Shown here: piece after piece, positions 3,194 to 20,898 of the stretch
How positions within the stretch are numbered: position 1 is the stretch's first letter
How the letters are laid out: each line of letters opens with the position of its first letter
From: a virus
DNA: 20,898 nt
IMG/VR virus record: IMGVR_UViG_3300017719_000283
Coordinates: 1-20,898 of that record
Direction: 5' to 3' (one strand)
Program-made: the position numbers and the translations under genes
The notes under the pieces: model-generated
What the model saw: only the letters and a program-made list of their open reading frames with translations
Database searches by the model: none
What the model was told of the DNA's origin: nothing

Positions 3194-5412
3194 GGCTAAA
3201 CGTTTCCGACACTGACCTCGACCTGTACCAAGACGAGGCGGTAAACCTCACAATACAGTTCTCCGACCTTGAGCAAATCAACAGCCCGGTCGGTTCGTTC
3301 TCGCAGACCTTCCGGGTGCCGGGAACACCTAAAAACTTGGACTTGTTTGGAGCTGTCAACCTTAGCGACCCGGCAGGGGTTAACCTCAAGACCAAGAAAG
3401 ATGCAGAGCTGTTCTCCGGCTCTGTGTCGATCTTAAAGGGCTACGTGCAGGTCAAGGCTGTCTACCTTCAAAAGAAGGAATACGCAGACATAGAGCTGGT
3501 GTTTTTTGCTGGTGCCGTAGACCTAAAAACAGCGATTGGCGACGGCATGCTGACTGACCTCGATTGCAGCGACAAGGACCACGACTTGCTTTACAACTTT
3601 GTCGTTGCTTCATGGTCGGGTGTTGGCATCGGGCCTGAGGTTACCTACGGGCTCATTGACAAGGGGGCAAACTGGAACTTTGATGCGGGCGAGATCCCGT
3701 GGACTGCATCGAATGGGATGTACTTAGGGCAACTTACCCCCATGTTTCAGGCTAAGTACGTGCTGGACAAGATCATGAGCACGGCAGGGTACACCTTCGA
3801 CTCGACTTTCCTTAATCAGACAGGCCTTCAGACATTCGGCAATATCTACCTGCCAGGACTCAATGGGGCAACGACTCCATTGACGACAGATGCCGACCAG
3901 TCAAATGCCCGTGCAGGTTTGGATGCTGACTTCACAGGTTCTACGCTTACCACCTTGGATCTTGTAGACAACGCCACAGGCGGACTTGATGACGGTAGCA
4001 ACTGGAGCAACACGACGCACAAGTACACTGCCCCTTACACGGGCAAGTTTGCTTTGAGGCTGACCTACTCTTATAACCAAGGCGGGTTGACAAATCAAGT
4101 TGCTATACAGGTGTTCAAGAATGGTTCGACGCTTTTATTTTCCGCAGACACAGGACCGGGTACGGCTCAAAACCGACTCAAAACACAACTGGTAGACCTC
4201 GAAGAAAACGATACTATCGAGGTCAAAGGCAGGGCAATCTCCGCGGGTGTTGTCATCAAGGGCAACGACTCTACCATCTCAGGCATCCGCACCTCTCTGG
4301 AGATCATTGGCGGCTTCCCGTTCTCAGGGTTCGAGGTGGACGTGGCTCGCAATATGCCGGAGCTAAAGCAGATTGACTTCGTGACGGGGTTGCAAAAAAT
4401 GTTCAACTTGGTGTTCATTCCTGACAAGAACAGGCAGAAGCACCTACTCATTGAGCCTTACGTCGACTACATCGCCTCCGGCACAGACAAGAGCTGGACA
4501 GACCTGATCGACTACGACCACGACATTGTGATCAAGCCTACCACTGACCTGCAGTCAAAGCGGTACGAGTGGACTCACAAGGCAGGTGGTGACTTCTTGA
4601 GCCAAAGCGTGGACAGTAGCTTGGACAGGGTGTATGGCAACTACCGCGTCAATGATGCCGAGAACGACTTCGCAACAGGCGACAAGAAGATCAAAACGCC
4701 CTTCGCTCCATACATCACCTCACTCATCCCGGGTAGCGAGTTCCCCATACACAGGAGCTTGAAGCAGGACGGCACGGGGATTGAGAACCCGTTGCCCATG
4801 TTGGCTTACTACCACGGGCTGGTAAACGAGTTCGGGACATGGTACCTCAGGAACGATACCGGGGTGGAACAGACCTTAACTACATTCCCCAGCTTCTCAA
4901 ATTACTCTAACGACCTGCCGGAGCTGACGTCGCTCGACCTCAATTTCGGCATGGAAACGCCGTTTCTTACTGTGGAGTGCTCACCCCGCGATACACTGTT
5001 CATTAAGTACTGGTCACAGTATGTCACAGAGCTGTACAGCGAGGAAGCACGGATCATGAGCTTGCACGTTCGGTTGGACAGGGTGGAGTTGGCAGACTTT
5101 GAGTTTTCGGACAAGATTTGGATGCGTGGTGCCCGGTGGCGGGTGATCAAGATGACTTACGACGCGAATGTGGAGGGGTTGGTAAAGGTGGACTGCATCA
5201 AGGTGCTGTCAGACATTGCCTTTTGCGCCAAGGTTCCAACATCGTTGCGGGTCAGTGATAACTACCTGCTGTTCAATGGCTCCAATATCGCCAACCCTGA
5301 CTACGGGTCGCAGCAATGCTGTGAAGCATACGGGTTTATGTGGCAGCCTGACAAGGTCATTGGGACATTCGTCTGCCGCCCTCGCCTTGTAACATCGCAG
5401 CCAACACCGTAA
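3187..5412 (+). CDS. tail hub/baseplate-type protein with inserted jelly-roll-like domain (741 aa)
   Basis: The N terminus (residues 1-110: DLDLYQDEAVNLTIQFSD, then GSFSQTFRVPGT and a GYVQVKAVYLQ strand) matches a large tail protein common in Bacteroidota phages. The core resumes near residue 380 with MPELKQIDFVTGLQKMFNLV and LLIEPYVDYI, a hub-like fold in that family. Between them, about residues 250-375, lies a beta-rich stretch with KYTAPYTGKFALRL, IQVFKNGSTL and DLEENDTIEVKG, resembling C1q/TNF-type jelly rolls, possibly a receptor- or glycan-binding insertion. The C terminus has a Cys cluster (QQCCEAYGFMW with Cys further along). The position just before the tape measure gene supports a tail-tip location. 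The protein name is functional inference. Confidence 0.68.
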   Translation: MLRLNVSDTDLDLYQDEAVNLTIQFSDLEQINSPVGSFSQTFRVPGTPKNLDLFGAVNLSDPAGVNLKTKKDAELFSGSVSILKGYVQVKAVYLQKKEYADIELVFFAGAVDLKTAIGDGMLTDLDCSDKDHDLLYNFVVASWSGVGIGPEVTYGLIDKGANWNFDAGEIPWTASNGMYLGQLTPMFQAKYVLDKIMSTAGYTFDSTFLNQTGLQTFGNIYLPGLNGATTPLTTDADQSNARAGLDADFTGSTLTTLDLVDNATGGLDDGSNWSNTTHKYTAPYTGKFALRLTYSYNQGGLTNQVAIQVFKNGSTLLFSADTGPGTAQNRLKTQLVDLEENDTIEVKGRAISAGVVIKGNDSTISGIRTSLEIIGGFPFSGFEVDVARNMPELKQIDFVTGLQKMFNLVFIPDKNRQKHLLIEPYVDYIASGTDKSWTDLIDYDHDIVIKPTTDLQSKRYEWTHKAGGDFLSQSVDSSLDRVYGNYRVNDAENDFATGDKKIKTPFAPYITSLIPGSEFPIHRSLKQDGTGIENPLPMLAYYHGLVNEFGTWYLRNDTGVEQTLTTFPSFSNYSNDLPELTSLDLNFGMETPFLTVECSPRDTLFIKYWSQYVTELYSEEARIMSLHVRLDRVELADFEFSDKIWMRGARWRVIKMTYDANVEGLVKVDCIKVLSDIAFCAKVPTSLRVSDNYLLFNGSNIANPDYGSQQCCEAYGFMWQPDKVIGTFVCRPRLVTSQPTP

Positions 5413-5416
5413 GCAA

Positions 5417-5578
5417 ATGGAAAATCCTCGTCTTATACTTGAGGCCATCGACCTGCTCGTTGCAAGCAAGAAGCGGCAGCCCTCCCTTTGGTGGGTGAAG
5501 CCGTTGGACTTGGTGTTAACCCTTGCCTACTTACTGGCGTTTGGGTGGCTCATTTTTAACGTGATCCAATGGCTGTAA
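5417..5578 (+). CDS. small membrane protein, 53 aa
   Basis: A short gene between the tail hub and tape measure genes, overlapping the latter by 10 bases in another frame. The N-terminal half is soluble and charged (ENPRLILEAIDLLVASKKRQ), followed by a strongly hydrophobic stretch of about 24 residues to the C terminus (LDLVLTLAYLLAFGWLIF). One membrane span with its tail ending in the membrane is thus predicted. The start lies 4 bases after the upstream stop, which suits coupled translation. I do not recognise a family. It could be a virion-associated membrane protein, a holin-like factor, or a chaperone of tail assembly. Confidence 0.6.
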   Translation: MENPRLILEAIDLLVASKKRQPSLWWVKPLDLVLTLAYLLAFGWLIFNVIQWL

Positions 5579-7140
5579 CCAAGCAACAAATTATCCTTGA
5601 GTTCGATGCGGAAACTGGTCAGCTGACTGGTAAGCTCAATGACGTCAACCAGAGCGTGGAGCAGGTCAGCGACAGCACTTCGGTGTTGACGACCCAGCTC
5701 GACAAGATGACTGGCGGGGCTGTGTCGGGTTTCAAAAATGCTGCCAACGGAACCAAGGCATTTGTCACTGGACTAAAGCTAACAAGGGCTGCTATCATTG
5801 CTACGGGCATTGGTGCATTGGTCATTGGCGTGATTGCGTTGGTTAAAGCATTCACTCAGACCGAGGAGGGAGCACGTAAGCTTAAAAAGGCCTTCGCCCC
5901 TGTGCAGGCTGTGGTGGACGTGCTCATGATGCGTATTTCTGCTCTGGGCGGTGCCATTGTCAAGCTGTTTTCACGGGACTGGGAGGGAGCTGCTAAAGAC
6001 CTCGGCAGGGCACTGGCTGGTAACAATGACGAGTATGCACGGCAAATCAAGCTGTACGACGAGCTGATTGAGCGTGAATTCGCGTTGGAAGATGCTCGCA
6101 TAAAACAGACCGTCGAGACGGCGAGGATCCGTGCAGAGATCAAAGAACTAAACCTCGTAGCGGAGGACACCACAAGGACGATTGAGGAGAGAGAGGCGGC
6201 GGCAGCTAAGGCTGGTGAGCTGGAGCGAAACTTGTTCGAGGAGCGCAAGGCTCAGGCAGAGGAGGAACTGGCTATTGCTAATTTGCGTCTCGAGAACTCC
6301 AACACACTGACAGAGGACAGACAGGCCGTTGCAGAACTCGAAGCAGCGGTGTTCGACCTTTCCCGTGAATCGTTGGAGCTGCAGACGACCCTCAACAACA
6401 AGCTCAACATCATTCGTGAGGAGGGTGCCCGTAAGCAGCAGGAGGCTCTGACCAAAGAGATTGAGCTGATGCAGCAGACCGTGGAGCTCAACCAAGAGAG
6501 GATCAAGGAACAAGAGGAGGTCAACAACGAAACAGAGCGCGGCTTGATCATTCGCAAGGATGCGGAAACCGTCGCTACGGGCATCGTAGAAACAGAGTCA
6601 CAGAAGCGACGCAGGATCCGCAAGGAGGAGTTCAGCAATAGCATTGACCTTTTGGAGGACGAGTTTAACCACAGGGCAGAACTGGCTACGGCTTCGTTTG
6701 CGGCTTTGTCGGCTTTGAACAGCGCTTTTGCGGCAGACAGCGAGGAGGGTGCAAGAAAGGCATTCAAACGCAACAAAGCCCTCGCATTGGCTACGGCTAT
6801 CACTCAAACGGCACAGGGCATTATCACGCAGCTTGCTGTCCCACAGGATGCCTTGACAGGGCAGAACTTCGTCAAAGCAGCGATCGTGGCAGCTACTGGT
6901 GCGGCTCAGGTTGCTCAAATCAAGCAAAGCCAGTTTCAAGGTGGCGGAAACCTTGGTGGCAGCATCCCACGTCCCAATGAGGGCGGGGTATTCGGAGGAG
7001 CACCACAGCTCGACCTCGGATTTTTAGGTGGTGGAGCAGGACAGGATGCCCCCATACAGGCCTACGTTATAGCCCAAAACGTGAGCAACGCACAACAAGC
7101 AAATCAACAGGTACAGGACCAAGCAAACTTAGGCGGATGA
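5569..7140 (+). CDS. tape measure protein
   Basis: Tape measure proteins set tail length and are carried inside the tail tube. This 523-residue protein has the expected build: a polar N-terminal helix region with regular V/S/T/D heptads (VNQSVEQVSDSTSVLTTQL), a hydrophobic segment at about 74-93 (AIIATGIGALVIGVIALV), a second at 113-134, a long Glu/Arg/Lys/Gln coiled coil to about residue 370, an Ala-rich hydrophobic segment, a Gly-rich linker, and a C-terminal end (AYVIAQNVSNAQQANQQV) seen in tape measure proteins of Bacteroidota phages. By the rule of about 0.15 nm per residue the tail would be near 78 nm. The gene lies between tail-tip and head genes and overlaps the protease by 4 bases. 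Confidence 0.85.
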   Translation: MAVTKQQIILEFDAETGQLTGKLNDVNQSVEQVSDSTSVLTTQLDKMTGGAVSGFKNAANGTKAFVTGLKLTRAAIIATGIGALVIGVIALVKAFTQTEEGARKLKKAFAPVQAVVDVLMMRISALGGAIVKLFSRDWEGAAKDLGRALAGNNDEYARQIKLYDELIEREFALEDARIKQTVETARIRAEIKELNLVAEDTTRTIEEREAAAAKAGELERNLFEERKAQAEEELAIANLRLENSNTLTEDRQAVAELEAAVFDLSRESLELQTTLNNKLNIIREEGARKQQEALTKEIELMQQTVELNQERIKEQEEVNNETERGLIIRKDAETVATGIVETESQKRRRIRKEEFSNSIDLLEDEFNHRAELATASFAALSALNSAFAADSEEGARKAFKRNKALALATAITQTAQGIITQLAVPQDALTGQNFVKAAIVAATGAAQVAQIKQSQFQGGGNLGGSIPRPNEGGVFGGAPQLDLGFLGGGAGQDAPIQAYVIAQNVSNAQQANQQVQDQANLGG

Positions 7141-8489
7141 AAATTGTGGAACTAATCATTGACGAGGAAGCAGAGGTGTTCGGCATCGAAGCCATTTCAC
7201 TCGTAGACCGTCCCGCCATCGAGCTGGACTTCGTGGCGTTAAAGGATGAAAAGGTGCAGTTCGCCGAGATGGACGAGGACAAGCGCATCTTGATGGGCCC
7301 AGCCTTGGTGCCTGACAAGCCTATCTACCGCAAAAATGCGTCGGGGGAGTTCTACGTATACTTTTCCAAATCAACCGTGCGCAGGGCCGCAGAGCTGTAC
7401 CTCCAGCATGGCAACCAAGCGCGTCACACCTTGGAGCACGAGCATGCAATAAATGGGCTCACCGTGGTCGAGTCGTGGCTCGTGGAGGACAAGGACAGGG
7501 ACAAGTCAGCCGTCTACGGCTTGGACGTCCCGGTGGGCACATGGATGGTTGCGGTTAAGGTGGACAACGAGAGCATCTGGCAGGAGTGGGTCAAGGAACA
7601 GAAGGTTAAGGGCTTCAGCATCGAGGGTTACTTCGCCGACAAGATGCAGAAACAGGAGGAGCAGACAGAGATGGGCTACGACGTCGTGGATGCGGTGCTC
7701 AACCTGTTGGAGATGGAGAGCTACAGCGACTATCCTGACGCGGTTGTAAACAATGCCAAGCGAGGCATCGAGCTCAACGAGAAGGAGGGCAACAAGTGCG
7801 CGACGCAGGTGGGTAAGGTTCGTGCTCAACAGCTGTCACAGCGCAAGGCCTTGACCCGCGACACCATTGAGAGGATGGCTAACTACCTGTCGCGTGCAGA
7901 GGTGTACTATGACGAGGGAGGACCAAGCGATTGTGGGTACATCAGCTACCTGCTGTGGGGAGGTAAGGCTGGGAAGCGGTGGGCTGATGCTAAGGTGCGT
8001 GAGTTCAAAACCATGTCAGCCTTGGAACAGGTAGCGGTGGAGATCATGGCGGAGCAGTACAAGGCGGCAGAGGTCGGACCCCGTGGCGGTGTCAAACGCA
8101 GCAAGAAAGCTCCCAAAAGCGACACCCCAAACAAGAACCCCAAGCGCGGATCCGACAAGAACAAGCCCGGAGCTGCTGCCAGCGAGGGCAAGGTCAAGGT
8201 GCCGGAGAAGGTGAACAAGATCTTGCAGGGCAAAAGCGACGACTTCAATGAACGTTACAAGGAGAAGCTGGGCTACGGTGTTAGCGTGGCGAAGCTTCGT
8301 GTGGTCTACCAACGTGGGGTTGGTGCATTCCAAACATCCCACAGCCCAAAGGTGTCCAGCAGTCAGCAGTGGGCTTTGGCTCGCGTAAACGCTTTCCTGT
8401 ACTTGGTGCGCAATGGGAAGCCCGAGAACGCCAAGTACACCACTGACTACGACCTTTTGCCAGCAAAACACCCCAAGGCTGAAAAATAA
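7137..8489 (+). CDS. XkdF-like prohead protease with two extra C-terminal domains
   Basis: Residues 1-170 fit XkdF-type prohead serine proteases, which cleave scaffold and capsid proteins during head maturation: FGIEAISLVDRPAI at the start, the candidate His in HTLEHEHAINGL (101/103), and the candidate nucleophile Ser161 in GFSIEG. Residues about 195-290 form a second domain (YPDAVVNNAKRG, KVRAQQLSQRKALTRDTIERM, then LLWGGKAGKRWA) known from many phage head-associated proteins without a settled role. After a Lys/Pro linker (GPRGGVKRSKKAPKSDTPNK), residues 355-450 form a third domain (SVAKLRVVYQRGVGAF, SQQWALARVNAFLYLV, DYDLLP), reminiscent of DUF5824-type modules. At 450 aa it is more than twice a bare protease. 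ATGA overlap with the tape measure; the scaffold follows. Confidence 0.75.
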   Translation: MKIVELIIDEEAEVFGIEAISLVDRPAIELDFVALKDEKVQFAEMDEDKRILMGPALVPDKPIYRKNASGEFYVYFSKSTVRRAAELYLQHGNQARHTLEHEHAINGLTVVESWLVEDKDRDKSAVYGLDVPVGTWMVAVKVDNESIWQEWVKEQKVKGFSIEGYFADKMQKQEEQTEMGYDVVDAVLNLLEMESYSDYPDAVVNNAKRGIELNEKEGNKCATQVGKVRAQQLSQRKALTRDTIERMANYLSRAEVYYDEGGPSDCGYISYLLWGGKAGKRWADAKVREFKTMSALEQVAVEIMAEQYKAAEVGPRGGVKRSKKAPKSDTPNKNPKRGSDKNKPGAAASEGKVKVPEKVNKILQGKSDDFNERYKEKLGYGVSVAKLRVVYQRGVGAFQTSHSPKVSSSQQWALARVNAFLYLVRNGKPENAKYTTDYDLLPAKHPKAEK

Positions 8490-8546
8490 CTGCACCCCGG
8501 CGTAAGCATTAGGGGGTCAAAAACGTCTATACCAAAACGCACACAC
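8490..8546 (+). other. non-coding gap between protease and scaffold with weak hairpin
   Basis: This 57-base gap is one of the few breaks in the virion block. It can form a short hairpin (ACCCC at 8494-8498 with GGGGT at 8513-8517, loop 14 bases) without a T tract, so it is not a convincing terminator. No TTTG/TAnnTTTG promoter is visible. It may hold a processing site or leader for the scaffold-capsid pair. Confidence 0.35.
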
Positions 8547-9305
8547 ATGAACATCCAACAACGCGTGCAAGACATCCTTAACCGATTCGACGTCAACTTG
8601 ACTGTCACGGAGGAGAAGCGCACAGAGATGGCAGAAGTCACTCTCGAAAACGGCACCGTGCTCTATTCTGACGACGAGTTCGCAGTCGGAGCAGAAGCCT
8701 ACATTATCAATGACGAGGGCGAGCGCATCAGCGTTCCCGCTGGAGACTACGAATTGAACGACGGTCGCTTGTTGGTCATTGGAGAAGGTGGCAAGGTGGA
8801 GGAGATCAAAGGAGCTCCCGAAGCTGAGGAAGCTGCCGAGGAGAAGGACGAAGAGCGCGTGGAGCAGTCCGCCGAAACCGAGGAACCAGCAGAAGCTGAG
8901 GCCGAGGAGGAAGAAGAGATCGAAATTGAAATCGAACTTGAAGACGAGGACGAGGACAAAAAGAAGCCCACCTACGTCACCCGTGCCGAGGTGGAGGATA
9001 TGATAAAGTCTGCTTTTGCAGCCCTCAAGGATGAAGACAAGGACAAAGAAGAAATGTCCGACGTGAACCCAGAGGCACCCAAGGCTGAGGCAGAGCCCGA
9101 AGCCAAAGCGGTTGAAGCCCCCGAGGCTGACCCCATTGCAGAGGAACTGGCTGCCGTCAAGGCTGAACTTTCAGAGATGAAAGACGCTGCCGTTCCCATG
9201 CTCAAGCACGCCACTCCAACGGCGCAGCCTGAGCCCATCGACTTGTCTACACTTAAACTACAGGAGCGCGTCGCCGTGCTTCACTCAAAATTCTCTCAGA
9301 AATGA
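8547..9305 (+). CDS. capsid scaffolding protein
   Basis: Scaffolding proteins guide capsid assembly and are cleaved or expelled afterwards. Evidence is the place (after the protease, overlapping the capsid gene by 4 bases), the composition (very acidic, low complexity, with a Glu/Ala/Ile run around residues 90-145 such as EEEEEIEIEIELEDEDEDKK), a predicted helical C terminus (IAEELAAVKAELSEMKD), and an N-terminal small beta module (MAEVTLENGTVLYSDDEF, GDYELNDGRLLVIGEGGKV) that I know from scaffolds of Bacteroidota phages. Length 252 aa. An in-frame ATG at 9054 could give an 83-residue C-terminal product, as in nested scaffold genes, but nothing in the sequence proves its use. The ATG at 8547 gives the full N-terminal helix and is preferred. 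Confidence 0.72.
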   Translation: MNIQQRVQDILNRFDVNLTVTEEKRTEMAEVTLENGTVLYSDDEFAVGAEAYIINDEGERISVPAGDYELNDGRLLVIGEGGKVEEIKGAPEAEEAAEEKDEERVEQSAETEEPAEAEAEEEEEIEIEIELEDEDEDKKKPTYVTRAEVEDMIKSAFAALKDEDKDKEEMSDVNPEAPKAEAEPEAKAVEAPEADPIAEELAAVKAELSEMKDAAVPMLKHATPTAQPEPIDLSTLKLQERVAVLHSKFSQK

Positions 9306-10983: not shown

Positions 10984-11379
10984 ATGATACACCTAGCACC
11001 TAACGCCGCAAGCAACGTTGTAAGCATTTCGCCCTTTCAGGCGCGAAAGTATCTTGCTACGTTCACTCACTACCTGCTTGTTTTAACCAACGAGGCGAGC
11101 GAGGCAACGCACAAGGCGGTGCTCAACACGTCGGTGGACAACAAGAGGCAGACAAAGTTTGACTTGCCTACCGATGCGAATGCAGCGGGCGAGGTGCTTA
11201 TCACGCAGTCAGGGCTCTACACCTACACAGTGTACGGCCAAAACAGTTCGTCCAACACCGACCCAACAAACGGCACGGTGGTGGGCATTTGTGAGACAGG
11301 CACGGCACGTGTGACTGCATCAGCTGCGTGGACTACACCAGCCATTTCGATCCCCGACAACGTCGTATATTACGAGTGA
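10984..11379 (+). CDS. virion-associated hypothetical protein, 131 aa
   Basis: The frame extends upstream, but the first usable ATG after the terminator at 10950-10977 is at 10984, so that start is chosen. The product is Thr/Asn/Ser-rich and beta-like, with LATFTHYLLVLTNEAS, a charged turn (DNKRQTKFDLPTD), LITQSGLYTYTVYGQNSSSNTD, and a final IVV-type strand region. The layout (two-strand start, 'G-x-Y-x-Y-x-V-Y' middle, acceptor loop) matches a small protein found beside capsid or tube genes in Bacteroidota phages; its role is not settled. It ends 2 bases before the portal start. A head-tail interface or fibre-like role is possible; I do not assign one. Confidence 0.6.
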   Translation: MIHLAPNAASNVVSISPFQARKYLATFTHYLLVLTNEASEATHKAVLNTSVDNKRQTKFDLPTDANAAGEVLITQSGLYTYTVYGQNSSSNTDPTNGTVVGICETGTARVTASAAWTTPAISIPDNVVYYE

Positions 11380-11381
11380 AC

Positions 11382-13250
11382 ATGGATTTACTACAACTCA
11401 AAGAATACCAGGCCAAGAGCTACGCGGAGTCAACAAGTCGCGATGGCTATATGAACTACGGGGACGACAACCTTTTCCCGCAGTACCTCATTGACCTGTA
11501 CCACTCCAGTGCCACGCACAATGCCTTGTGCACCTCGATTGCTTACATGATCTTTGGTGACGGCGTGCAGTCGGACGACTTCGACGCCAAGCTGAAGGTG
11601 CAGGAATGGGGGCTCGACGATGAGATCCGCAAGGCGTGCCTTGACCTGAAGATACAGGGAGGGTTTGCCTTGGAGATCGCCTACAACCTCGGGCGGACAT
11701 CAATTAAGAAAGTGAAGCACTGCCCGTTTGAGCGCGTCCGTTCGGGTGAGGTCAACGACGACGAAAAAGTAGAGTTCTACTACTACTCGGAGGACTGGAG
11801 CGACCCCAAAATTGAGCCCGTAAAGGTGCGGTGCTTCAACCCTGAGGACAAGAACGAGTACCCTCACCAGATCCTATACGTGAAGCCGTTCTCGCCCGGT
11901 TCGTACTACTACCCAAAGCCCGACTACGTAGGTAGCATAAACTACATCGAACTCGACAAGGAGATCGGCACCTACCACATCAACAACATCAAGAACGGGC
12001 TGGCTCCATCGTTCACCATCCACTTCAAAAACGGGGTGCCCTCGGCTGAGGAGCGTTACAAGATCCGGAACGACATCGAGCGTCAACTCGGTGGAGCTAC
12101 GAATGCGGGCAAGTTCATTGTGACTTACTCGGACCAGCCGGAGCGCAAGCCCGACTTCGAGCCGTTCCCGTTGAGCGATGCAGATAAGCAATACCAGTTC
12201 CTGAGCGAGGAGGTGGTCGCTAAGATCATGGTAGGCCACAGAGTGACATCGCCCATGCTGTTTGGCGTCATGGTCAGCGGCAAGCTTGGCGGCGGTCTGG
12301 AGCTCAAGACAGCGAAAGAGATCTTCACCAGCGAAATCATTGAGCCGTACCAAGACATCGTCACGCACAGCATTGAGCGCATACTCGAAGCGGCTGGCGT
12401 TCCTGCTCAGGTGGGACTCGTAGAGGCCGAGACAGAGGAAGCCAACGTGGAGGTCAGCTACACAGGCATCCAAATCAGCAGTGCGGTAGACATCATTGCC
12501 AAGGTTGGTACTGGTGAGCTCAACAAAGAGCAAGCCACCCAGCTATTGGTTGCTATGCTCGGCTTCGACCGTGAGACAGCTACCATGATGTTTGAAGACG
12601 TCGAGGTGCAAGCTCCTGCGGTAGAGATGAGCGAGGAGGCAGTCAACCTTGCCTGCGACTACCTGATTGAGATGGGCGAGGAGGAGGAGGACTACGAGGG
12701 CTGGGAACTGATTGATGCCCGACGGGTGGACTATGATACCGAGGCCCAGCAGGACGCCATGTGGAGCTTTGCAAGGGCTATTCCCGGCAGTTCTGCCGAG
12801 CGTGGTAGCCGTGGTACCTCTGAGCAGGACAACGACGTAATTCGCGTTCGCTACGCCTACATGCCCAAAGTGACAGGCGACCAAGGTGTTGCTACCTATA
12901 ATTCACGCGACTTCTGCAAGCGCATGGTCGGAGCAGGCAACAGGGTTTGGCGCAAGGAGGACATTGCATCTGCATCACAAAGAGCTGTGAACCCCGGATG
13001 GGGACCAAACGGAGCAGATACTTACGACCTGTTCCTGTACAAGGGCGGTGGATCTTGCCAACACTTTTGGGAGCGTCGCACCTACCTACGCAAGAACAAC
13101 AATCGGGTCGGGGTCAACCGAGCCCGTGCAATCATTCGTGAAGCAGGGCTGCCAGCTATGGAGCAGAACGACCGTCGGGTTGCAGTCACTCCCCGAAGTA
13201 TGACCAACCGTGGCTTTTTGAACCCCCAAAACATCACAACCCCGCAGTAA
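11382..13250 (+). CDS. portal protein fused to a C-terminal Cys/His domain
   Basis: The 622-residue protein starts at ATG 11382, two bases after the previous stop; an in-frame ATG at 11328 is rejected because it lies inside the upstream gene. Residues 1-370 resemble portal proteins of Bacteroidota phages: GDDNLFPQYLIDLYHSSATH, a helix-rich clip/stem with KIMVGHRVTSPMLFGV, and a tail helix. After an acidic linker (MGEEEEDYEGWELIDARRVD, 431-450) comes an extra domain (about 440-570) with RVRYAYMPK, FCKRMVGAGNRVWRKEDIAS, a WGPNGADTYDLFLYKGG stretch and CQHFWERRTYLRK. This domain, with Cys512, Cys559 and His561, recurs in related phages; it may be a MuF-like head domain. The DUF6712-type adaptor follows at TAATG. 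Confidence 0.8.
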   Translation: MDLLQLKEYQAKSYAESTSRDGYMNYGDDNLFPQYLIDLYHSSATHNALCTSIAYMIFGDGVQSDDFDAKLKVQEWGLDDEIRKACLDLKIQGGFALEIAYNLGRTSIKKVKHCPFERVRSGEVNDDEKVEFYYYSEDWSDPKIEPVKVRCFNPEDKNEYPHQILYVKPFSPGSYYYPKPDYVGSINYIELDKEIGTYHINNIKNGLAPSFTIHFKNGVPSAEERYKIRNDIERQLGGATNAGKFIVTYSDQPERKPDFEPFPLSDADKQYQFLSEEVVAKIMVGHRVTSPMLFGVMVSGKLGGGLELKTAKEIFTSEIIEPYQDIVTHSIERILEAAGVPAQVGLVEAETEEANVEVSYTGIQISSAVDIIAKVGTGELNKEQATQLLVAMLGFDRETATMMFEDVEVQAPAVEMSEEAVNLACDYLIEMGEEEEDYEGWELIDARRVDYDTEAQQDAMWSFARAIPGSSAERGSRGTSEQDNDVIRVRYAYMPKVTGDQGVATYNSRDFCKRMVGAGNRVWRKEDIASASQRAVNPGWGPNGADTYDLFLYKGGGSCQHFWERRTYLRKNNNRVGVNRARAIIREAGLPAMEQNDRRVAVTPRSMTNRGFLNPQNITTPQ

Positions 13251-14097: not shown

Positions 14098-14469
14098 ATG
14101 TACAAATACTTCAAGCTCACAGAGTTCGACAGCCCTGACCAGCCCGGTTCGGGCGAAATGATGGAGCCCGCAGTCGTCTTGGCGTTAGATAACGCAAGGG
14201 ACCTTGCGGGTTTTCCGTTTGTGGTGACGAGTGGCTTTCGAAGTATTGCTCACAATCGCAGTTTGATCCGTGCAGGGCTTCCTGCATCGCCCAAATCCAG
14301 CCACTTGCTTGGATGGGCTGTGGACTTGCGTGTTGACAACAGCGAGAGAGCTTACCTCATGGTCGAAGCTTTGCTCGATGCGGGCTTCAACCGCATAGGC
14401 ATCAGTCAGAAATTCATTCACGCAGACATGGACCCTAACAAAAAAAGCAATTTACTGTGGACATACTGA
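14098..14469 (+). CDS. endolysin, peptidase M15 family (L-Ala-D-Glu or D-Ala-D-Ala peptidase type)
   Basis: A peptidoglycan-cutting zinc peptidase for host lysis. All zinc ligands of the M15 family are visible in the 123-residue product: SSHLLGWAVDL gives His69 and Asp76 in the S-x-H-x-x-G-x-A-x-D motif, and KFIHADMD gives the third ligand, His108. The strand/helix before them (FPFVVTSGFRSIAHN) is also typical, its Arg48 likely binding the substrate. The size matches single-domain phage M15 enzymes; no signal peptide or cell-wall-binding domain is present, so export should depend on the holin. The preceding membrane protein fits this. Which bond is cut cannot be told from the sequence. Confidence 0.85.
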   Translation: MYKYFKLTEFDSPDQPGSGEMMEPAVVLALDNARDLAGFPFVVTSGFRSIAHNRSLIRAGLPASPKSSHLLGWAVDLRVDNSERAYLMVEALLDAGFNRIGISQKFIHADMDPNKKSNLLWTY

Positions 14470-15302
14470 GAAAGGGCCGAACGGTTCACCACGTCGACCT
14501 CGACTTCATCAAGCGAGGAACAGACAAACACCTGCTGTTTATCTCCGACGTCCACTACGACTCCGTTAAATGCGACCGCTCGCTGTTGCACCGACACCTC
14601 GACGAGGCTAGGCGCATCGGGGCGGGCGTTTTCATTTTCGGCGACTTGTTCGACTTGATGCAGGGGCGGTTCGATCCACGGGGCAACTACTCAGAACTCC
14701 GACCCGAGTACAAGAGCTGTACCTATGTGGACGAGGTTATACAAGACGTGGGGGAGAAGCTGGCCGAGTACAAGGACGTCATCCGGTTTATCTCACGAGG
14801 CAACCACGAGACCAACATCGAAAAGCGCATGATGGTTTCACCCATTGACAGGGTGGCCCAAATCATTAACGCAGCAGGTGGCAGAGTAGAGACAGGAGGC
14901 TACGCAGGGTGGCTGGGCATCACTTGCCATCGAGGTAAAAAGAGTGCGAAGCGATTCATGGTGCATTACCACCACGGGTACGGAGGAAACGCGAAGCGGT
15001 CCAAGGGGGTGCTAAACAACGACCTTGATCTTGCACAGTTCCCTGACGCGGACTTTCTTGTGCGGGGTCATGACCACAACAAGTGGTACCACCCCGTTAC
15101 GGTGGACAGGATCAACCAAAAGCTCAAGCTGGAACAGAGCATGCGGTACATTATGCGGCTGGGATCCTACAAGAAGCTGGGTGACAGGTTTGCTGGATGG
15201 GCTACGGAAAAGGGATTTAACACCCCAAGCCTTGGCGGGTGGTGGGTTCGCTTTGTGGAAAACAGAGACGAGTATAGGGTCGAGGTTAGGGACGCCTCGT
15301 AG
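14457..15302 (+). CDS. calcineurin-like metallophosphoesterase
   Basis: The 281-residue product carries all metal-binding blocks of calcineurin-like phosphoesterases in order: D31-x-H33 in ISDVHYD, GDLFD (Asp63), GNHE (Asn116-His117), a His in MVHYHHGYG (170-173), and GHDH (205-207). It is thus probably an active hydrolase of phosphoesters, perhaps nucleotide or nucleic acid; the substrate is unknown. The start is GTG 14457, overlapping the endolysin by 13 bases; no nearby in-frame ATG exists. It is the last gene before a strong terminator, in the late block rather than with the replication genes, which is odd for a nucleic-acid enzyme and hints at a late role. Confidence 0.85.
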   Translation: MDILRKGRTVHHVDLDFIKRGTDKHLLFISDVHYDSVKCDRSLLHRHLDEARRIGAGVFIFGDLFDLMQGRFDPRGNYSELRPEYKSCTYVDEVIQDVGEKLAEYKDVIRFISRGNHETNIEKRMMVSPIDRVAQIINAAGGRVETGGYAGWLGITCHRGKKSAKRFMVHYHHGYGGNAKRSKGVLNNDLDLAQFPDADFLVRGHDHNKWYHPVTVDRINQKLKLEQSMRYIMRLGSYKKLGDRFAGWATEKGFNTPSLGGWWVRFVENRDEYRVEVRDAS

Positions 15303-15306
15303 TATA

Positions 15307-15338
15307 TTGCGCACGGCCATCAGGTGGTCGAATCTTTG
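15307..15338 (+). promoter_or_regulatory. possible Bacteroidota-type promoter before the terminator
   Basis: TTG at 15307-15309, a 21-base spacer and AATCTTTG at 15331-15338 match the TTG/TAnnTTTG consensus except for the first base of the -7 element. It points into the terminator 17 bases further on, so it would make only a short RNA of about 45 bases, or feed read-through into the early operon. The match may be chance. Confidence 0.3.
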
Positions 15339-15354
15339 TTTTTTCATTCATTGG

Positions 15355-15388
15355 AAGAGCCTTCGGAACGCCGGGGGCTCTTTTTTTT
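15355..15388 (+). terminator. strong rho-independent terminator ending the late block
   Basis: The arms 15355-15366 and 15371-15382 pair over 12 positions (two G-U) around an AACG loop. A run of eight T at 15381-15388 overlaps the end of the 3' arm and follows it. It lies 52 bases after the metallophosphoesterase stop and just before the promoter of the next operon, so it insulates late genes from early genes. Confidence 0.92.
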
Positions 15389-15398
15389 GTCTCAAAAT

Positions 15399-15429
15399 TT
15401 GGAAGTAGACATACTCTGTCCTATCTTTA
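15399..15429 (+). promoter_or_regulatory. Bacteroidota-type promoter of the early operon
   Basis: TTTG at 15398-15401, a 20-base spacer, then TATCTTTA at 15422-15429. The Bacteroidota housekeeping-sigma consensus is TTTG, about 19 bases, TAnnTTTG; only the last base of the -7 element differs. It stands directly behind the terminator at 15355-15388, where an operon promoter is expected. Transcription should begin near 15432-15436. The fit indicates recognition by the host primary sigma factor, hence early expression. Confidence 0.72.
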
Positions 15430-15454
15430 GGACATGAATCAAGGGAAAAACGAA

Positions 15455-17735: not shown

Positions 17736-17911
17736 GTGACAAGAACCTTGCACAGGGTTGGATAGACGGAGGGGGCTACGGCTCCCTCCCTCCCAACTCT
17801 CACAAGAAAAGCAGCAAGTACCACGGAGGACCACAGAAGGGCTACTACCGAGGGGTTAAGACGTGGGACCCTTGGAAGCAGAGGTGGTGGGTCATACAGA
17901 CGTACCCATGA
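17732..17911 (+). CDS. small Gly/Tyr/Trp-rich basic protein, 59 aa
   Basis: A small gene with ATGA overlaps on both sides. The product has many Gly, Tyr, Trp and Lys residues (GWIDGGGYGS, KKSSKYHGGPQKGYYRGVK) and ends WDPWKQRWWVIQTYP. No family is recognised. Basic and aromatic content could suit nucleic-acid or protein binding; place between an HTH protein and the replication initiator is the only further clue. Confidence 0.5.
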   Translation: MSDKNLAQGWIDGGGYGSLPPNSHKKSSKYHGGPQKGYYRGVKTWDPWKQRWWVIQTYP

Positions 17912-18585
17912 GTCACGAACGGCAATTTTGTGGGGTGTGGATCAGCGCAGACGTATGGCTGGACAAGAGGCTATCGCTGGTGGAGAAAGCCCTGCTTGCT
18001 GAGGTGGAGAGCTTCACAGGCAATGGCAAGACCTTCCACAAAAGCAATGACACCATACAGACAGAGTACGGCATAAGCAAGAACACGATTGCAAGGGCTC
18101 TGCGTAAGTTGGAGCACCTGCAGTTCGTGGACATCCGATTTAACGGCAGGGTGCGTCACGTCTCACTTCGGGAAGGCAGACTCCCCAAAATGGAGAGGCA
18201 GACTATGCAAAATGGAGATGCTGCATCCCCAAATGTGGTCGCTACTAATACAACTAAGAAAACAAGAGACAATACAACTAAAGAGAGCAAAGCGCGCCCA
18301 AAGGACTTACAACAGGTTGTAGAGGCTTTCAAGGCGGTAGGATCGGCAGAGGAGGATGCGATGCAGTTCTACGACTATTACAGCGCAAATGGATGGACGC
18401 AGGGCCGAGGCAAGCCGATTAAGGACTGGAAGGCCGCGGCAAGGGGATGGATTCGCAGAAGCTCACAATTCCAAAAAAATGAAAGAACTCGCAAAGGCAC
18501 GTCAGGAGCTGGCCCAACGGACGGCTCACTCATTGAACAACATCTACGCCGCCTCGCGGATGGATCCGGTACAGGCATGGGTTGA
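17908..18585 (+). CDS. replication initiator-like protein, winged-helix plus DnaD-like tail
   Basis: The ATG at 17908 overlaps the upstream stop (ATGA), so it is chosen over an in-frame ATG at 17863. In the 225-residue product, residues 20-90 form a winged helix: LSLVEKALLAEVESF, SNDTIQTEYGISKNTIARAL, then FVDIRFNGRVRHVSL (wing). A polar linker follows, and residues 135-186 contain the replisome-organiser signature FYDYYSANGWTQGRGK with IKDWKAAARGWIRR. This build is common in phage replication initiators that bind origin DNA and recruit the helicase loader. The downstream protein is a candidate loader. The C-terminal end is shared with the next gene in another frame. Confidence 0.72.
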   Translation: MSHERQFCGVWISADVWLDKRLSLVEKALLAEVESFTGNGKTFHKSNDTIQTEYGISKNTIARALRKLEHLQFVDIRFNGRVRHVSLREGRLPKMERQTMQNGDAASPNVVATNTTKKTRDNTTKESKARPKDLQQVVEAFKAVGSAEEDAMQFYDYYSANGWTQGRGKPIKDWKAAARGWIRRSSQFQKNERTRKGTSGAGPTDGSLIEQHLRRLADGSGTGMG

Positions 18586-19123
18586 GGGTGTCAATGTCCA
18601 AGCAGCATACAACAATCCCCAGACACAGGCCGCTGTGGAAGCAGCATTGATTGCCATGCTGGCCAAGACCCTCCGGTACTTGGACTACTCAAGGACCATC
18701 ACGGCAGACCAAGACATCTTGGATGCGGTAGAGCATCTGCGGTTGGAGTTTCCAGCCATGAAGCTGGAAGAATGGGCTATAATTTTCCACCGACTCAAGA
18801 CGGGGGAGTACCGCCCCGGCTATGAGCGTTTGAAACTTCCGGAACTTGTTGCTATATTCCAGCAGTACGAAGGTGAACGTGCTGAACGTCGCGAAGCCAA
18901 TTGGGGTGAGCTCAAGAAGCAAACGCCCAACAATCTCGACGATGAGCAGGTGAAGGCCTTGTACGCACATTACGCACAACAACGCCGTGAAGCGAAAGAA
19001 GCCGCTGCAAAGGAAACCGAAATTGACCGCGTCCAAACAGACGAACGCGGAAGGTGGCAGCACATCCCGTACCCGAACACGCAAGACCACGAACCCTCGG
19101 GGGGCAATGGTGAAGAAGCTTGA
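18479..19123 (+). CDS. DUF6633-like protein, possible helicase loader
   Basis: From ATG 18479 the product is 214 aa and overlaps the previous gene by 107 bases; an in-frame ATG at 18560 would reduce this to 26 bases and cannot be excluded. Residues about 52-135 are the recognisable part: AAVEAALIAMLAKTLRYLDY, ITADQDILDAVEHLRLEFPA, KLEEWAIIFHRLKTGEYRPG and LPELVAIFQQYEGERAE, which I know from DUF6633-type proteins in Bacteroidota phages and prophages. The rest is charged and helical. Its position behind the initiator suggests a replisome role such as loading of helicase; no P-loop is present, so it is not a DnaC-type ATPase. Function is inference. Confidence 0.62.
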   Translation: MKELAKARQELAQRTAHSLNNIYAASRMDPVQAWVEGVNVQAAYNNPQTQAAVEAALIAMLAKTLRYLDYSRTITADQDILDAVEHLRLEFPAMKLEEWAIIFHRLKTGEYRPGYERLKLPELVAIFQQYEGERAERREANWGELKKQTPNNLDDEQVKALYAHYAQQRREAKEAAAKETEIDRVQTDERGRWQHIPYPNTQDHEPSGGNGEEA

Positions 19124-19490
19124 CGGGGTGTTTTCGCAGTATGTAAGGCTACGAGCAACCGACGATTCTGGTCATGGACATTGTTACACGTGTCACTCAC
19201 GTCGGCATTGGTCGGAGGTTGATGCTGGCCACTTCATGAGCAGAGCGTGTATGTCTACGCGATGGGACGAGGCGAATGTGCAGTTCCAATGCAAGAGGTG
19301 CAACGGTTTTCGATCGGGCGAGCAGTTCCTTTTTAGCAGGAACCTCGACGAGCAGTTTGGGGAGGGTAAGGCGGAGGAGCTATTCATTGCGTCCAAGCAG
19401 ACCCGAAAATGGACACGGGCAGAGCTTGAGGCTATGTACCACCACTACAAACGATTAGTTGATGAGCTCCGAAGCTCGAAAGGCATTTGA
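19107..19490 (+). CDS. NinG-like recombination endonuclease
   Basis: The 127-residue product carries the family pattern: KKLDGVFSQYVRLRATDD at the start, CYTCHSR (Cys26, Cys29), HWSEVDAGHFMSR with His42, STRWDEANVQFQCKRCNGF (Cys62, Cys65), and a helical end with HHYKRLVDEL. NinG-type proteins are HNH-like zinc nucleases linked to recombination and Holliday-type structures. An upstream in-frame GTG at 18987 would add a very basic 40-residue extension (MKRKKPLQRKPKLTASKQTN and more) like that of some NinG relatives, at the cost of a 137-base overlap; the ATG at 19107 (17-base overlap) is preferred. It overlaps the sigma-like gene. Confidence 0.72.
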   Translation: MVKKLDGVFSQYVRLRATDDSGHGHCYTCHSRRHWSEVDAGHFMSRACMSTRWDEANVQFQCKRCNGFRSGEQFLFSRNLDEQFGEGKAEELFIASKQTRKWTRAELEAMYHHYKRLVDELRSSKGI

Positions 19491-19953
19491 CAGCTGGTTT
19501 ACAGGCCATTACAATGAGCTTGCAGCCTCCGCGATGACCTACCACGCGGACGGTTCAGACTTGCTGCACAACACCTACCTCCGGTGCGTCGATGCACTGG
19601 AACGCAGTGGGGGAGCAATCAACAACTTTGCAGCGTACTTCCGCAGGGCTTTGTGGATTGAAGCCACAAGAGGGACCTTCAAAAAGCTTTACACGTACCG
19701 TGATTGCCCTAACGATGAGCTCCCGAACCCTGACCCTACCCGGGACCCATTCGAGCGCGAGAACGCGCTTATATTGACCCGACACCTCGCATGGTTCGAT
19801 CGCACCGTGCTCAGCCTGTACTTAGATGGCTATAACCTCAGGCAGGTAGCGAGGGAAAGCGGCATACCGCACCAAACACTATACCAATCGCTCCACCGGA
19901 GCAAAAACAAGGTTCGCAATGTTTATCGTCAGCGCACAAACAAGAGCAAATAG
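19462..19953 (+). CDS. RNA polymerase sigma factor-like protein (ECF type)
   Basis: A 163-residue product with the two-part layout of small sigma-70 factors. Region 2-like: LAASAMTYHADGSDLLHNTY, LRCVDAL and NFAAYFRRALWIEATR. Region 4-like: DRTVLSLYLDGYNLRQVARE then SGIPHQTLYQSLHRSKNKVR, whose HTH would read the -35 element. The two parts are joined by an acidic Pro-rich linker (NPDPTRDPFE). The start is ATG 19462, 29 bases inside the NinG-like gene. A phage-encoded sigma would redirect host polymerase to late genes. Loss of polymerase-binding residues cannot be excluded, so it may instead be a regulator derived from a sigma factor. Confidence 0.7.
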   Translation: MSSEARKAFDSWFTGHYNELAASAMTYHADGSDLLHNTYLRCVDALERSGGAINNFAAYFRRALWIEATRGTFKKLYTYRDCPNDELPNPDPTRDPFERENALILTRHLAWFDRTVLSLYLDGYNLRQVARESGIPHQTLYQSLHRSKNKVRNVYRQRTNKSK

Positions 19954-20326
19954 ACTCAACACCTGCCGAGAGTGCGAGCACTTCGTCAAGAGCACACAGA
20001 GCTGTGGGCCTCTCGTGGTGGAAGCCTTTACAGAGTCAAAGCTTTGCGGGTGTCACATGCCTACGAAGACACGACTGAAATGGGCGGAATGTCCGTTGGA
20101 GAAGTGGCAGGCCGTGATCAACAAAGAGCAGCTTGCCGAGGTGCAGGACTTCTTGGACACGGTGGACAACGATGTGCGTCAGTTAACGGACCAAGACCTT
20201 GCTGACCTATACAACCGTATCTTGGGCACTAACAAGCAGGCAAGTAGCTGTGGAGGGTGCAACAGAGACATGGTGCAGACCTTGCGCAAACTGATTAAAC
20301 AAAGCAAAAATGAATCCACCAAATGA
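19919..20326 (+). CDS. zinc-ribbon-like protein with two Cys clusters
   Basis: The 135-residue product starts 35 bases before the sigma-like stop. N-terminal Cys cluster: C16-x2-C19, C29, C43-x-C45, C58 in RLNTCRECEHFVKST, KLCGCHMPTK and KWAECPLEKW, suggestive of a zinc ribbon. A C-terminal cluster C111-x2-C114 (SCGGCNRDMVQTLRKL) follows a helical stretch with LTDQDLADLYNRILGT. The combination is found in small proteins of Bacteroidota phages near replication genes; function unknown, nucleic-acid or protein binding likely. It overlaps the following DnaA-like gene by 17 bases. Confidence 0.62.
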   Translation: MFIVSAQTRANRLNTCRECEHFVKSTQSCGPLVVEAFTESKLCGCHMPTKTRLKWAECPLEKWQAVINKEQLAEVQDFLDTVDNDVRQLTDQDLADLYNRILGTNKQASSCGGCNRDMVQTLRKLIKQSKNESTK

Positions 20327-20654
20327 AAGCTTCTACCTTGCGGTAGGCAACCTTGCCCACGAAGATGGGTTTTACATGAACAGGGAGGAGGCATTGGAGC
20401 GAGTTCAACGCGGTGTTACTCGCATCGGACTACAATGGGCGGACATTATTGGCCCCGTCCGGCACAGGCCGTTTGTGGATGCACGCAAAATGGTAAGCTT
20501 GTTTTTACGTGAACAAGGCTGGACATTCAAGCAAATAGGCAAAGTCATGAACAGGGACCATGCGACAGCAATGCATCACACGCGAACCCTGTCGCACTTG
20601 ATGGAGTACGAAGGCAAGACTCGTTTGAAATACCAGGAATTTTGCAGCGCATGA
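20310..20654 (+). CDS. stand-alone DnaA domain IV-like DNA-binding protein
   Basis: The 114-residue product lacks any ATPase domain but has the DNA-binding domain IV pattern of the bacterial replication initiator DnaA: VDARKMVSLFLREQGWTFKQ, IGKVMNRDHATAMHHTRTL, where DH at 83-84 matches the family signature (R/K-DH-x-T-x-x). Helix order and spacing agree with domain IV. Such truncated DnaA-like proteins may bind DnaA boxes, either at the phage origin or by competing at the host origin. The N-terminal 50 residues are unrelated to DnaA. It overlaps the next gene by ATGA. Confidence 0.78.
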   Translation: MNPPNESFYLAVGNLAHEDGFYMNREEALERVQRGVTRIGLQWADIIGPVRHRPFVDARKMVSLFLREQGWTFKQIGKVMNRDHATAMHHTRTLSHLMEYEGKTRLKYQEFCSA

Positions 20655-20898
20655 ACCCGAAACCACTTACCTTCCGCAAGGCCAAGCGATTGCTCGGTCA
20701 ATGCGACGACTGGATCCTCTTCACGTCAGAGAACACAGGAGAGGAGACAGCCAACCTCCAATGTGCCACGGCTGACGCGCAGTCATGGACAATACTTATA
20801 GACCTCGCAGCTAACGACGAAACTTTCTACAATGCCCTCGAAACAATCCTCAACACGGCCCGTGACATACGCGAAAACGGCGAATCTCCGGACCAATC
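20651..20898 (+). CDS. hypothetical protein, N-terminal part (truncated by window end)
   Basis: Starts at ATG 20651 overlapping the DnaA-like stop and stays open for 82 codons to the window edge, so the length is unknown. The visible sequence (KPLTFRKAKRLLGQCDDWIL, then ETANLQCATADAQSWTILID and ALETILNTARDIREN) looks like a compact alpha/beta protein. No family is recognised. Codon use is the same as in the neighbouring genes, and the coupled start supports a real gene in the early operon. Confidence 0.5.
   Translation, partial: MNPKPLTFRKAKRLLGQCDDWILFTSENTGEETANLQCATADAQSWTILIDLAANDETFYNALETILNTARDIRENGESPDQ

Follow-up and report, generated by a model that had tools for sequence, protein, structure and literature searches.

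We analyzed computationally a viral DNA sequence of 20,898 nucleotides (IMG/VR record IMGVR_UViG_3300017719_000283, positions 1–20,898; hereafter "the window"), in which three overlapping genes encode a sigma-like protein, a cysteine-rich (Cys) protein and a stand-alone DnaA domain IV (DnaA-IV). Comparison with related phage sequences, together with structural modeling, makes it highly probable that the first of these is a phage sigma factor which drives late promoters, so that the locus would be an early-to-late transcription switch; this level of confidence applies to the sigma factor and the late promoters only. The three genes are as follows.

Positions 19462 (ATG) to 19953 (TAG), plus strand: sigma factor of the extracytoplasmic function (ECF) type, 163 amino acids, assigned from profiles, fold and co-variation.
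Positions 19919 (ATG) to 20326 (TGA), plus strand: Cys-rich protein, 135 amino acids, with 8 invariant cysteines and a match to phrog_13558.
Positions 20310 (ATG) to 20654 (TGA), plus strand: stand-alone DnaA domain IV, 114 amino acids, assigned from Bac_DnaA_C and fold.

The original prediction had described three overlapping genes here, and this was confirmed: the three open reading frames each lie in a different frame, with overlaps of 35 nucleotides (sigma and Cys) and 17 nucleotides (Cys and DnaA-IV). Its proposal that the sigma factor serves late genes is well supported at the level of sequence comparison, as late promoter-like elements co-vary with the regions of sigma predicted to contact DNA. 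The elements of the window, and the gene behind the first of them, are listed below.

Positions 8502 to 8531, plus strand: predicted late promoter before head-module gene 8547, GTAAGCAT-N14-CGTCTATA.
Positions 8547 to 9305, plus strand: gene behind the predicted 8502 promoter, between a protease-like gene (7137–8489) and the portal side (11328–13250).
Positions 5409 to 5436, plus strand: weaker candidate for a late promoter, sited at a gene boundary, GTAAGCAA-N12-CGTCTTAT, its -10 lying inside the coding start of gene 5417.

In profile searches, gene 7137 matched head maturation proteases (4.5e-12), gene 11328 a portal protein (1e-83) and gene 9302, weakly, a virion structural profile (3.6e-4). 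At the 5409 candidate, the exact pattern was found in the window only; other clade-A contigs have copies with one mismatch at the corresponding position.

We compared the window with 26 full contigs picked for length and for clade (A, B or C), making 27 in all. A bipartite -35/-10 element lies ahead of the head-module gene in 23/23 contigs holding that gene, and ahead of the first gene after TerL (the post-TerL gene) in 23/23. The spacing from 8-mer to 8-mer is 14 or 15 at the head-module site and 12 to 14 at the post-TerL site, and is constant for each site and clade with a sole exception of one base (contig G033). At the head-module site, identity in the -35 and -10 versus the spacer was 0.97/0.91 versus 0.48 in clade A, 0.90/0.93 versus 0.60 in clade C and 0.76/0.60 versus 0.52 in clade B. 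Identity in the 25 nucleotides upstream of the -35 was 0.62 (A), 0.55 (C) and 0.45 (B), set beside 0.48–0.60 for the spacers; sequence farther upstream was compared by eye only. The clade-A form, GTAAGC-N12-18-CGTCT, occurred in 15 copies in 10/11 records, all in gene sense even though three of these records lie reversed, and in 0 copies in a backward control. This exact form separates from chance (15 versus 0), whereas a scan allowing one mismatch was weak (27 sense versus 18 antisense) and one allowing two was useless (158 versus 194). Searching each genome with its own element yielded 49 sense and 1 antisense matches in the 27 contigs, 46 of them the defining sites, and elements from genomes sharing none gave 18 matches in 504 tries. 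As a separate observation, only some relatives have a self-contained cassette inserted after the TerL stop and ahead of the late promoter, consisting of a small gene with its own host-type promoter and terminator (L012 9640–9955, the same as L054 11640–11955).

The two late sites agree with each other within genomes. For this test, which made no use of the hand-read elements, sequence upstream of one gene was matched with sequence upstream of the other in every pairing of genomes; the sample was the 19 of the 27 contigs that hold both genes. The best two-block match, out of 14, was 11.95 within a genome versus 10.67 between genomes (p 5e-5). The result held when genomes were permuted within clades (p 0.005) and in clade B alone (7 genomes, p 0.0014), and among 16 control tests on eight other gene pairs, 15 gave p > 0.05 and one gave 0.034. 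A trans-acting factor with a changing taste for sequence would be the simple explanation for this agreement.

That factor is most likely the phage sigma, to judge from residue-base co-variation. Residue 142 belongs to the -35 recognition helix, where it fills position X of an LY-X-S or FY-X-S motif. In the 68 genomes with both sigma and the post-TerL element, residue 142 and base 4 of the -35 were paired as E/G (19), K/C (13), Q/C (1), Q/A (12), R/A (22) and T/A (1); E occurred with G in 19/19 genomes and K with C in 13/13. When all variable sigma columns were ranked, -35 base 4 peaked at column 142 (0.86) and base 2 at column 139 (0.46), while -10 bases 4, 2 and 1 peaked at columns 62, 61 and 56. 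For -35 base 4, the best column of the control proteins reached 0.19 in Cys, 0.23 in DnaA-IV, 0.22 in TerL and 0.18 in the post-TerL protein, and all four stayed below 0.25 for -35 bases 2 and 4 and below 0.33 for -10 base 4. The Cys protein and DnaA-IV, considered as candidate readers of the -35, were rejected, as neither had a co-variation peak. Within clade B (33 rows), residue and base each underwent 9 changes by the TerL tree and 10 by a sigma tree from which the helix had been excluded; the number of changes was equal for both traits on each tree, and they were joint in all 9 and all 10 independent pairs. Natural close pairs differing at residue 142 and at the base exist, as in the sigmas of L078/L079 versus those of L082/L095.

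In Mycobacterium tuberculosis sigma-H, -10 recognition involves a specificity loop at residues 72–79 and stacking by W81 (PMC6411747; here and below, published work is cited from excerpts of the papers named). By model alignment, this loop and W81 map to residues ~52–61 of the phage sigma. On the basis of the co-variation, which supports them, we propose contacts of residues 142 and 139 with the -35 and of residues ~56–62 with the -10.

The protein itself has the architecture of an ECF-type sigma. Region 2 (~1–86) and region 4 (~95–160, with Q at residue 142 in the window) are joined by a linker, and there is no region 1.1 or region 3. The best phage family match is phrog_1740, "RNA polymerase sigma factor" (E 5.9e-9), although only positions 64–223 of that 567-position profile match. 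TIGR02983 (1.4e-7) and TIGR02937, sigma70-ECF (2.9e-7), match across residues 4–155, TIGR02937 spanning residues 8–153. In the structural model, residues 1–83 superimposed on region 2 of sigma-H (21–102) with Z 9.0 and a root-mean-square deviation (rmsd) of 2.8 over 76 residues, and region 4 superimposed on ECF sigmas with Z about 5; the assignment of region 4 leans on the sequence profiles more than on the model. Searches with sigma and DnaA-IV against named phages (tblastn) gave no match at E 0.01. From these profiles, the protein is an ECF-type sigma in the sense of a distant relative working like one, and because its score lies under the curated cut-off we do not file it as a family member. 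It resembles group IV sigma70 ECF factors in size, in having regions 2 and 4 alone, in the region 2 fold and in its bipartite predicted promoters; it is unlike known ECF sigmas in its scores below the curated ones, its phage lineage and a Cys partner without a known anti-sigma match.

Several points weigh against a phage sigma reading these elements. Its profile scores fall under the NCBIfam curated cut-offs (for TIGR02937, 30.3 bits versus 42.9); the model is modest (pLDDT 66.8) and poor in the linker and where region 4 begins, and Foldseek with the sigma model found no match at E 0.001. The elements were first spotted by eye, and the choice of the two sites in the agreement test stemmed from that same look, as did the rules used for placement in the co-variation test, in which the -35 was set by the pattern T-N-A-G and the -10 by the clade-fixed spacing. 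Well-supported branches force only 3 (TerL tree) or 4 (sigma tree) joint switches, too few for a sign test to reach 0.05. For -10 bases 1, 2 and 5 some control proteins came near or above sigma, and the values for -35 base 2 (0.46) and -10 base 2 (0.62) lay within the extremes of 300 shuffles (0.48 and 0.63), so that only -35 base 4 and -10 base 4 stand clear of both shuffles and control proteins. Finally, the post-TerL element ends a few bases from the start codon, which predicts a leaderless or nearly leaderless transcript in all clades, and the window stops before TerL, so that its own post-TerL site lies beyond the window end.

Two other explanations of the elements were weighed. The elements could be real promoters read by a host ECF sigma or by an unlinked phage regulator, with the sigma-like protein doing something else. 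The phage sigma's binding to polymerase is a prediction, and other small helix-turn-helix (HTH) proteins of the early region lay outside the co-variation test; still, we hold this to be very improbable, as co-variation is confined to sigma among the five proteins (for -35 bases 2 and 4 and -10 base 4) and the two late sites agree within genomes. The position of the elements adjoining gene starts might suggest signals for translation or RNA processing at the start codon, but this is scarcely credible given two blocks that start ~26–48 nucleotides upstream of the gene, a spacer fixed in length but unconserved, and co-variation that ties -35 base 4 and -10 base 4 to sigma regions 4.2 and 2 rather than to the neighboring gene's product.

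With the phage sigma as the most likely reader, the switch would work as follows. Host RNA polymerase would start at a host-type promoter and transcribe an early/replication operon, which probably ends with NinG, sigma, the Cys protein and DnaA-IV. The ECF-type sigma would then direct the host core polymerase to two late promoters, one before the head-module gene (8502 in the window) and one before the first post-TerL gene, past the window end. Base 4 of the -35 would be read by residue 142 in region 4 and base 2 perhaps by residue 139, while the -10 would be read by the region-2 loop and the next helix (~56–62). The Cys protein, a constant partner, may modulate sigma, which is a guess; so is the view that DnaA-IV, an accessory confined to some clades, most likely binds DNA and co-regulates late transcription in the style of GafY. 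Features of the early side are listed below.

Positions 15354 to 15390, plus strand: putative intrinsic terminator at the late operon end, an inverted repeat rich in GC with a T run behind it, read by eye.
Positions 15398 to 15431, plus strand: predicted host-type promoter before the early operon, TTTG-N20-TATCTTTA.
Positions 17911 to 18585, plus strand: replication initiation-like protein (HTH_36; PF13730 2.3e-7, phrog_270 3.1e-10).
Positions 18987 to 19490, plus strand: NinG/Rap family endonuclease (PF05766 1e-16, phrog_5034 2.6e-27), overlapping sigma.
Positions 20651 to 20898, plus strand, running past the window end: small protein g20651, overlapping DnaA-IV by 4 nucleotides in 32/32 rows.

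By our own reading of the open reading frame lists, all accepted genes of the window lie on the plus strand. A 131-nucleotide gap (15303–15433) follows the phosphoesterase gene at 14457–15302 and holds the terminator-like repeat and then the host-type promoter, whose pattern we take to resemble the Bacteroidota promoter consensus. In the 27 contigs this pattern occurred 14 times in sense and 3 times in antisense, with 2 and 3 in a reversed control. Upstream of the three genes lie small HTH proteins, the replication initiator-like protein and NinG. We therefore place the trio last in the early operon, ahead of the packaging genes. In relatives, the trio likewise stands between the replication genes and the terminase. 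In three relatives read gene by gene, it is followed by g20651, a ParB-N-like gene, a TerS-like gene, TerL and structural genes; the ParB-N-like label is a profile match in L025, in which TerS and TerL were also confirmed by profile. No Pfam match was found for g20651. The late regulators ArpU, RinA and Xpf of Gram-positive phages likewise lie at the end of the early operon, before the terminase. Apart from the switch, the phosphoesterase is of the calcineurin-like type (PF00149, 9.3e-7) and its gene is overlapped by that of a peptidase M15, a probable endolysin (14098–14469; PF08291, 2.8e-9), at the late operon end.

The phages are a family of small, mostly one-strand tailed phages, probably with a Bacteroidota host, a host assignment made because of TerL similarity and the host-type promoter. 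Bacteroides phages accounted for 14 of the 15 best named TerL matches listed, at ~40%, and the top match was an unnamed gut phage. Megablast against named phages found no DNA-level relatives of the window, and bacterial and archaeal genomes searched with the sigma and Cys alignments yielded no relative. In Bacteroides phage BK745P1, most of whose genes ahead of the terminase are annotated "hypothetical," no sigma or DnaA gene is annotated there.

We examined how far the three genes stay together. Searches for relatives took the best 80 of 87 and the best 80 of 379 loci, so that shares of clades are not population frequencies, and clade C was recovered solely through the Cys search. Counts are for 93 of 122 dereplicated groups, the other 29 not having sigma and TerL both on one locus. 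The Cys gene adjoins sigma in 93/93 groups, and in 32 rows (relatives plus the window) the two overlap by 20–35 nucleotides throughout, while Cys and DnaA-IV overlap in 16/32 and lie 105–233 nucleotides apart in 16/32. Among 31 loci anchored on sigma, the gene order sigma, Cys, DnaA-IV, g20651 is found in every one. All 59 groups outside clade C have DnaA-IV (clade A 12/12, clade B 46/46, one unclassified group 1/1), and none of the 34 clade-C groups does. Thus sigma and Cys form the core, DnaA-IV is a clade trait and the trio is not indivisible. Of the "takeover module" of the original prediction, the constant pairing of sigma with Cys stands and the inclusion of DnaA-IV does not extend to clade C; conservation of the whole group, which it had proposed as a check, holds in clades A and B only. 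The clade pattern of DnaA-IV says little about function because it could reflect a single gain or loss.

The stretch beside these genes is variable. Clade-C loci such as L180, L185, L193, L194 and L195 carry varied cargo between Cys and TerS, where DnaA-IV sits in other clades: a C-5 cytosine methylase (PF00145) in L193 and, by eye, methyltransferase- or reductase-type enzymes in others. A three-gene cassette before TerS in L020 (5481–8705) encodes a pyridoxal phosphate enzyme (PF00291, 1.6e-8, slightly below the cut-off), an ADDT amino acid:DNA transferase (PF18724, 1.2e-17) and a Tet/JBP oxygenase (PF12851, 4.6e-14), and from these matches looks like DNA base hypermodification. A protein of 48–52 amino acids is encoded beside the Cys gene in clade B (for example, L025 3870–4016) and also in L185, L187 and L193, with the common C-terminal pattern R-C ... 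P-N/D-E/A-D-Q-R ... C ... W.

The original prediction of a DnaA DNA-binding domain without the ATPase was borne out: in this 114-amino acid protein the C-terminal domain alone matches, and there is no AAA+ domain. DnaA-IV matched Bac_DnaA_C (PF08299) with E 1.3e-8 and 35.2 bits versus a gathering score of 31.5, and the structure 1j1v by profile with 2.3e-8; its model superimposed on DnaA DNA-binding domains with Z 14.6 (3pvp; rmsd 1.5 over 89 residues) and 14.4. The list of residues contacting the DnaA box draws in part on the cited literature (PMC9638019). Numbered by alignment to 1j1v, the equivalents of R399, H434 and T436 are invariant in 14/14 sequences, D433 is kept in 10/14, T435 is A, S or T (A in the window) and H439 is H or Y. 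Because of the fold and the several contact positions kept, DnaA-IV likely binds DNA. We rejected the idea that it is the small terminase, since the three relatives read have a TerS-like gene of their own ahead of TerL.

A possible, still tentative, role for DnaA-IV is that of a GafY-like co-activator that binds DNA and domain 4 of sigma, sigma and DnaA-IV together acting like GafA. GafA has local similarity to DnaA and to the DNA-binding domains of sigma factors (PMC9638019), and in Caulobacter these functions are in two genes, GafY being homologous to DnaA domain IV and binding RpoD domains 3–4 (PMC9632790, PMC11150451). The position of DnaA-IV after sigma and Cys in 59/93 groups and its invariant contact residues fit such a role. 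Against it, clade-C groups do without DnaA-IV while the clade-C contigs examined share the same two late elements, DnaA-IV columns have no co-variation with the -35, and no conserved element was seen upstream of the -35, and terminators often lie directly upstream. The likeness to GafA and GafY-GafZ is that in those systems phage-type structural genes are acted on jointly by a DnaA-domain-IV part and a second part, either sigma-like or a separate partner. It is drawn from description, and there are differences: GafZ is an anti-terminator and GafY works with the housekeeping RpoD, whereas the phage sigma here has regions 2 and 4 and its own predicted promoter code.

It is distinctly improbable that DnaA-IV instead sits on DnaA boxes at a host or phage origin and so redirects replication, as the original prediction had it. 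The fold, the recognition positions mostly kept, and a gene run shared with a replication initiator-like protein and NinG speak for this. However, the window contained no TTATNCACA consensus DnaA box, and its one-mismatch boxes numbered 4 versus 3.05 ± 1.8 expected (20 simulations). Dereplicated relatives with DnaA-IV had 8 boxes in 717,559 bases (0.11 per 10 kb) and those without it 3 in 401,077 bases (0.07 per 10 kb), which is no clear enrichment; ~0.3 per 10 kb would be expected at equal base use. On these counts, boxes in the phage genome were rejected as targets of DnaA-IV. Moreover, the window has A in place of T435, a residue that contacts a base. A similar claim made for Caulobacter was also revised: GafY was first named HdaB for its effect on replication and was later shown to activate gene-transfer-agent genes (PMC9632790, PMC11150451). 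A GafY-like transcription role is a better guess for DnaA-IV than blocking of DnaA boxes.

The Cys protein has invariant cysteines at 16, 19, 29, 43, 45, 58, 111 and 114 (11 aligned sequences), for which the "zinc ribbon" label of the original prediction seems a reasonable reading. Apart from weak matches, it matched only phrog_13558 (1.2e-7), a family of unknown function. The genes of ECF sigmas and their anti-sigmas are often paired, and here the Cys gene adjoins sigma in every group and overlaps it in every row, as a partner gene might. A role for it as anti-sigma or co-sigma to the phage sigma nevertheless seems doubtful, as it matches no anti-sigma family and its N-terminal Cys domain is also found in cyanophages and Stenotrophomonas phages, where no search for sigma was made. 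In tblastn against named phages, this domain matched 36 records, all at <60% identity and, in the 30 rows listed, over about half of the query at most. A full three-part late switch, composed of an ECF-type sigma with an evolving promoter code, an obligatory Cys controller and, in two clades, a DnaA-IV co-activator, is in our judgment unlikely.

Phage sigmas of this kind have precedents. Those of phiEco32 (gp36), SU10 and 7-11 are phage-encoded and serve middle/late promoters, early genes depending on host sigma70 (PMC4281155, PMC4331800). Like them, including the SU10 sigma annotated as ECF, the window has a phage sigma and predicted promoters before structural genes that are unlike the host-type early ones. 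The comparison is one of role only, as those are different phages and the motif of the phiEco32 gp36 type is tAATGTATAtA; a small protein acting on the host sigma70 polymerase is also known in the phiEco32 type. No description of the present phage family or its promoters was found in the titles and abstract starts of open-licence PMC literature. Within that literature, ours is a known type of regulator in a family without a description, and its probable promoters and residue-base pairings stand out in the sequences with unusual clarity.

While phage sigmas as such are not new, recognizing their promoters from sequence alone is difficult; in this family, many relatives reveal a probable promoter together with the amino acid that probably reads it. 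The natural E142/K142 pairs offer a test bed for change of sigma specificity and a source of separate sigma-promoter pairs for use in laboratory Bacteroidota or E. coli. The locus also urges caution, in that a DnaA domain beside a sigma is not to be taken at once as replication takeover. If the three-part switch were true, it would parallel, with a genuine sigma, the switch that GafA provides in gene transfer agents. Recurrent changes of a single sigma residue, each matched at both promoters, would then mean that these phages re-key their late switch time and again, perhaps avoiding cross-talk with co-infecting relatives.

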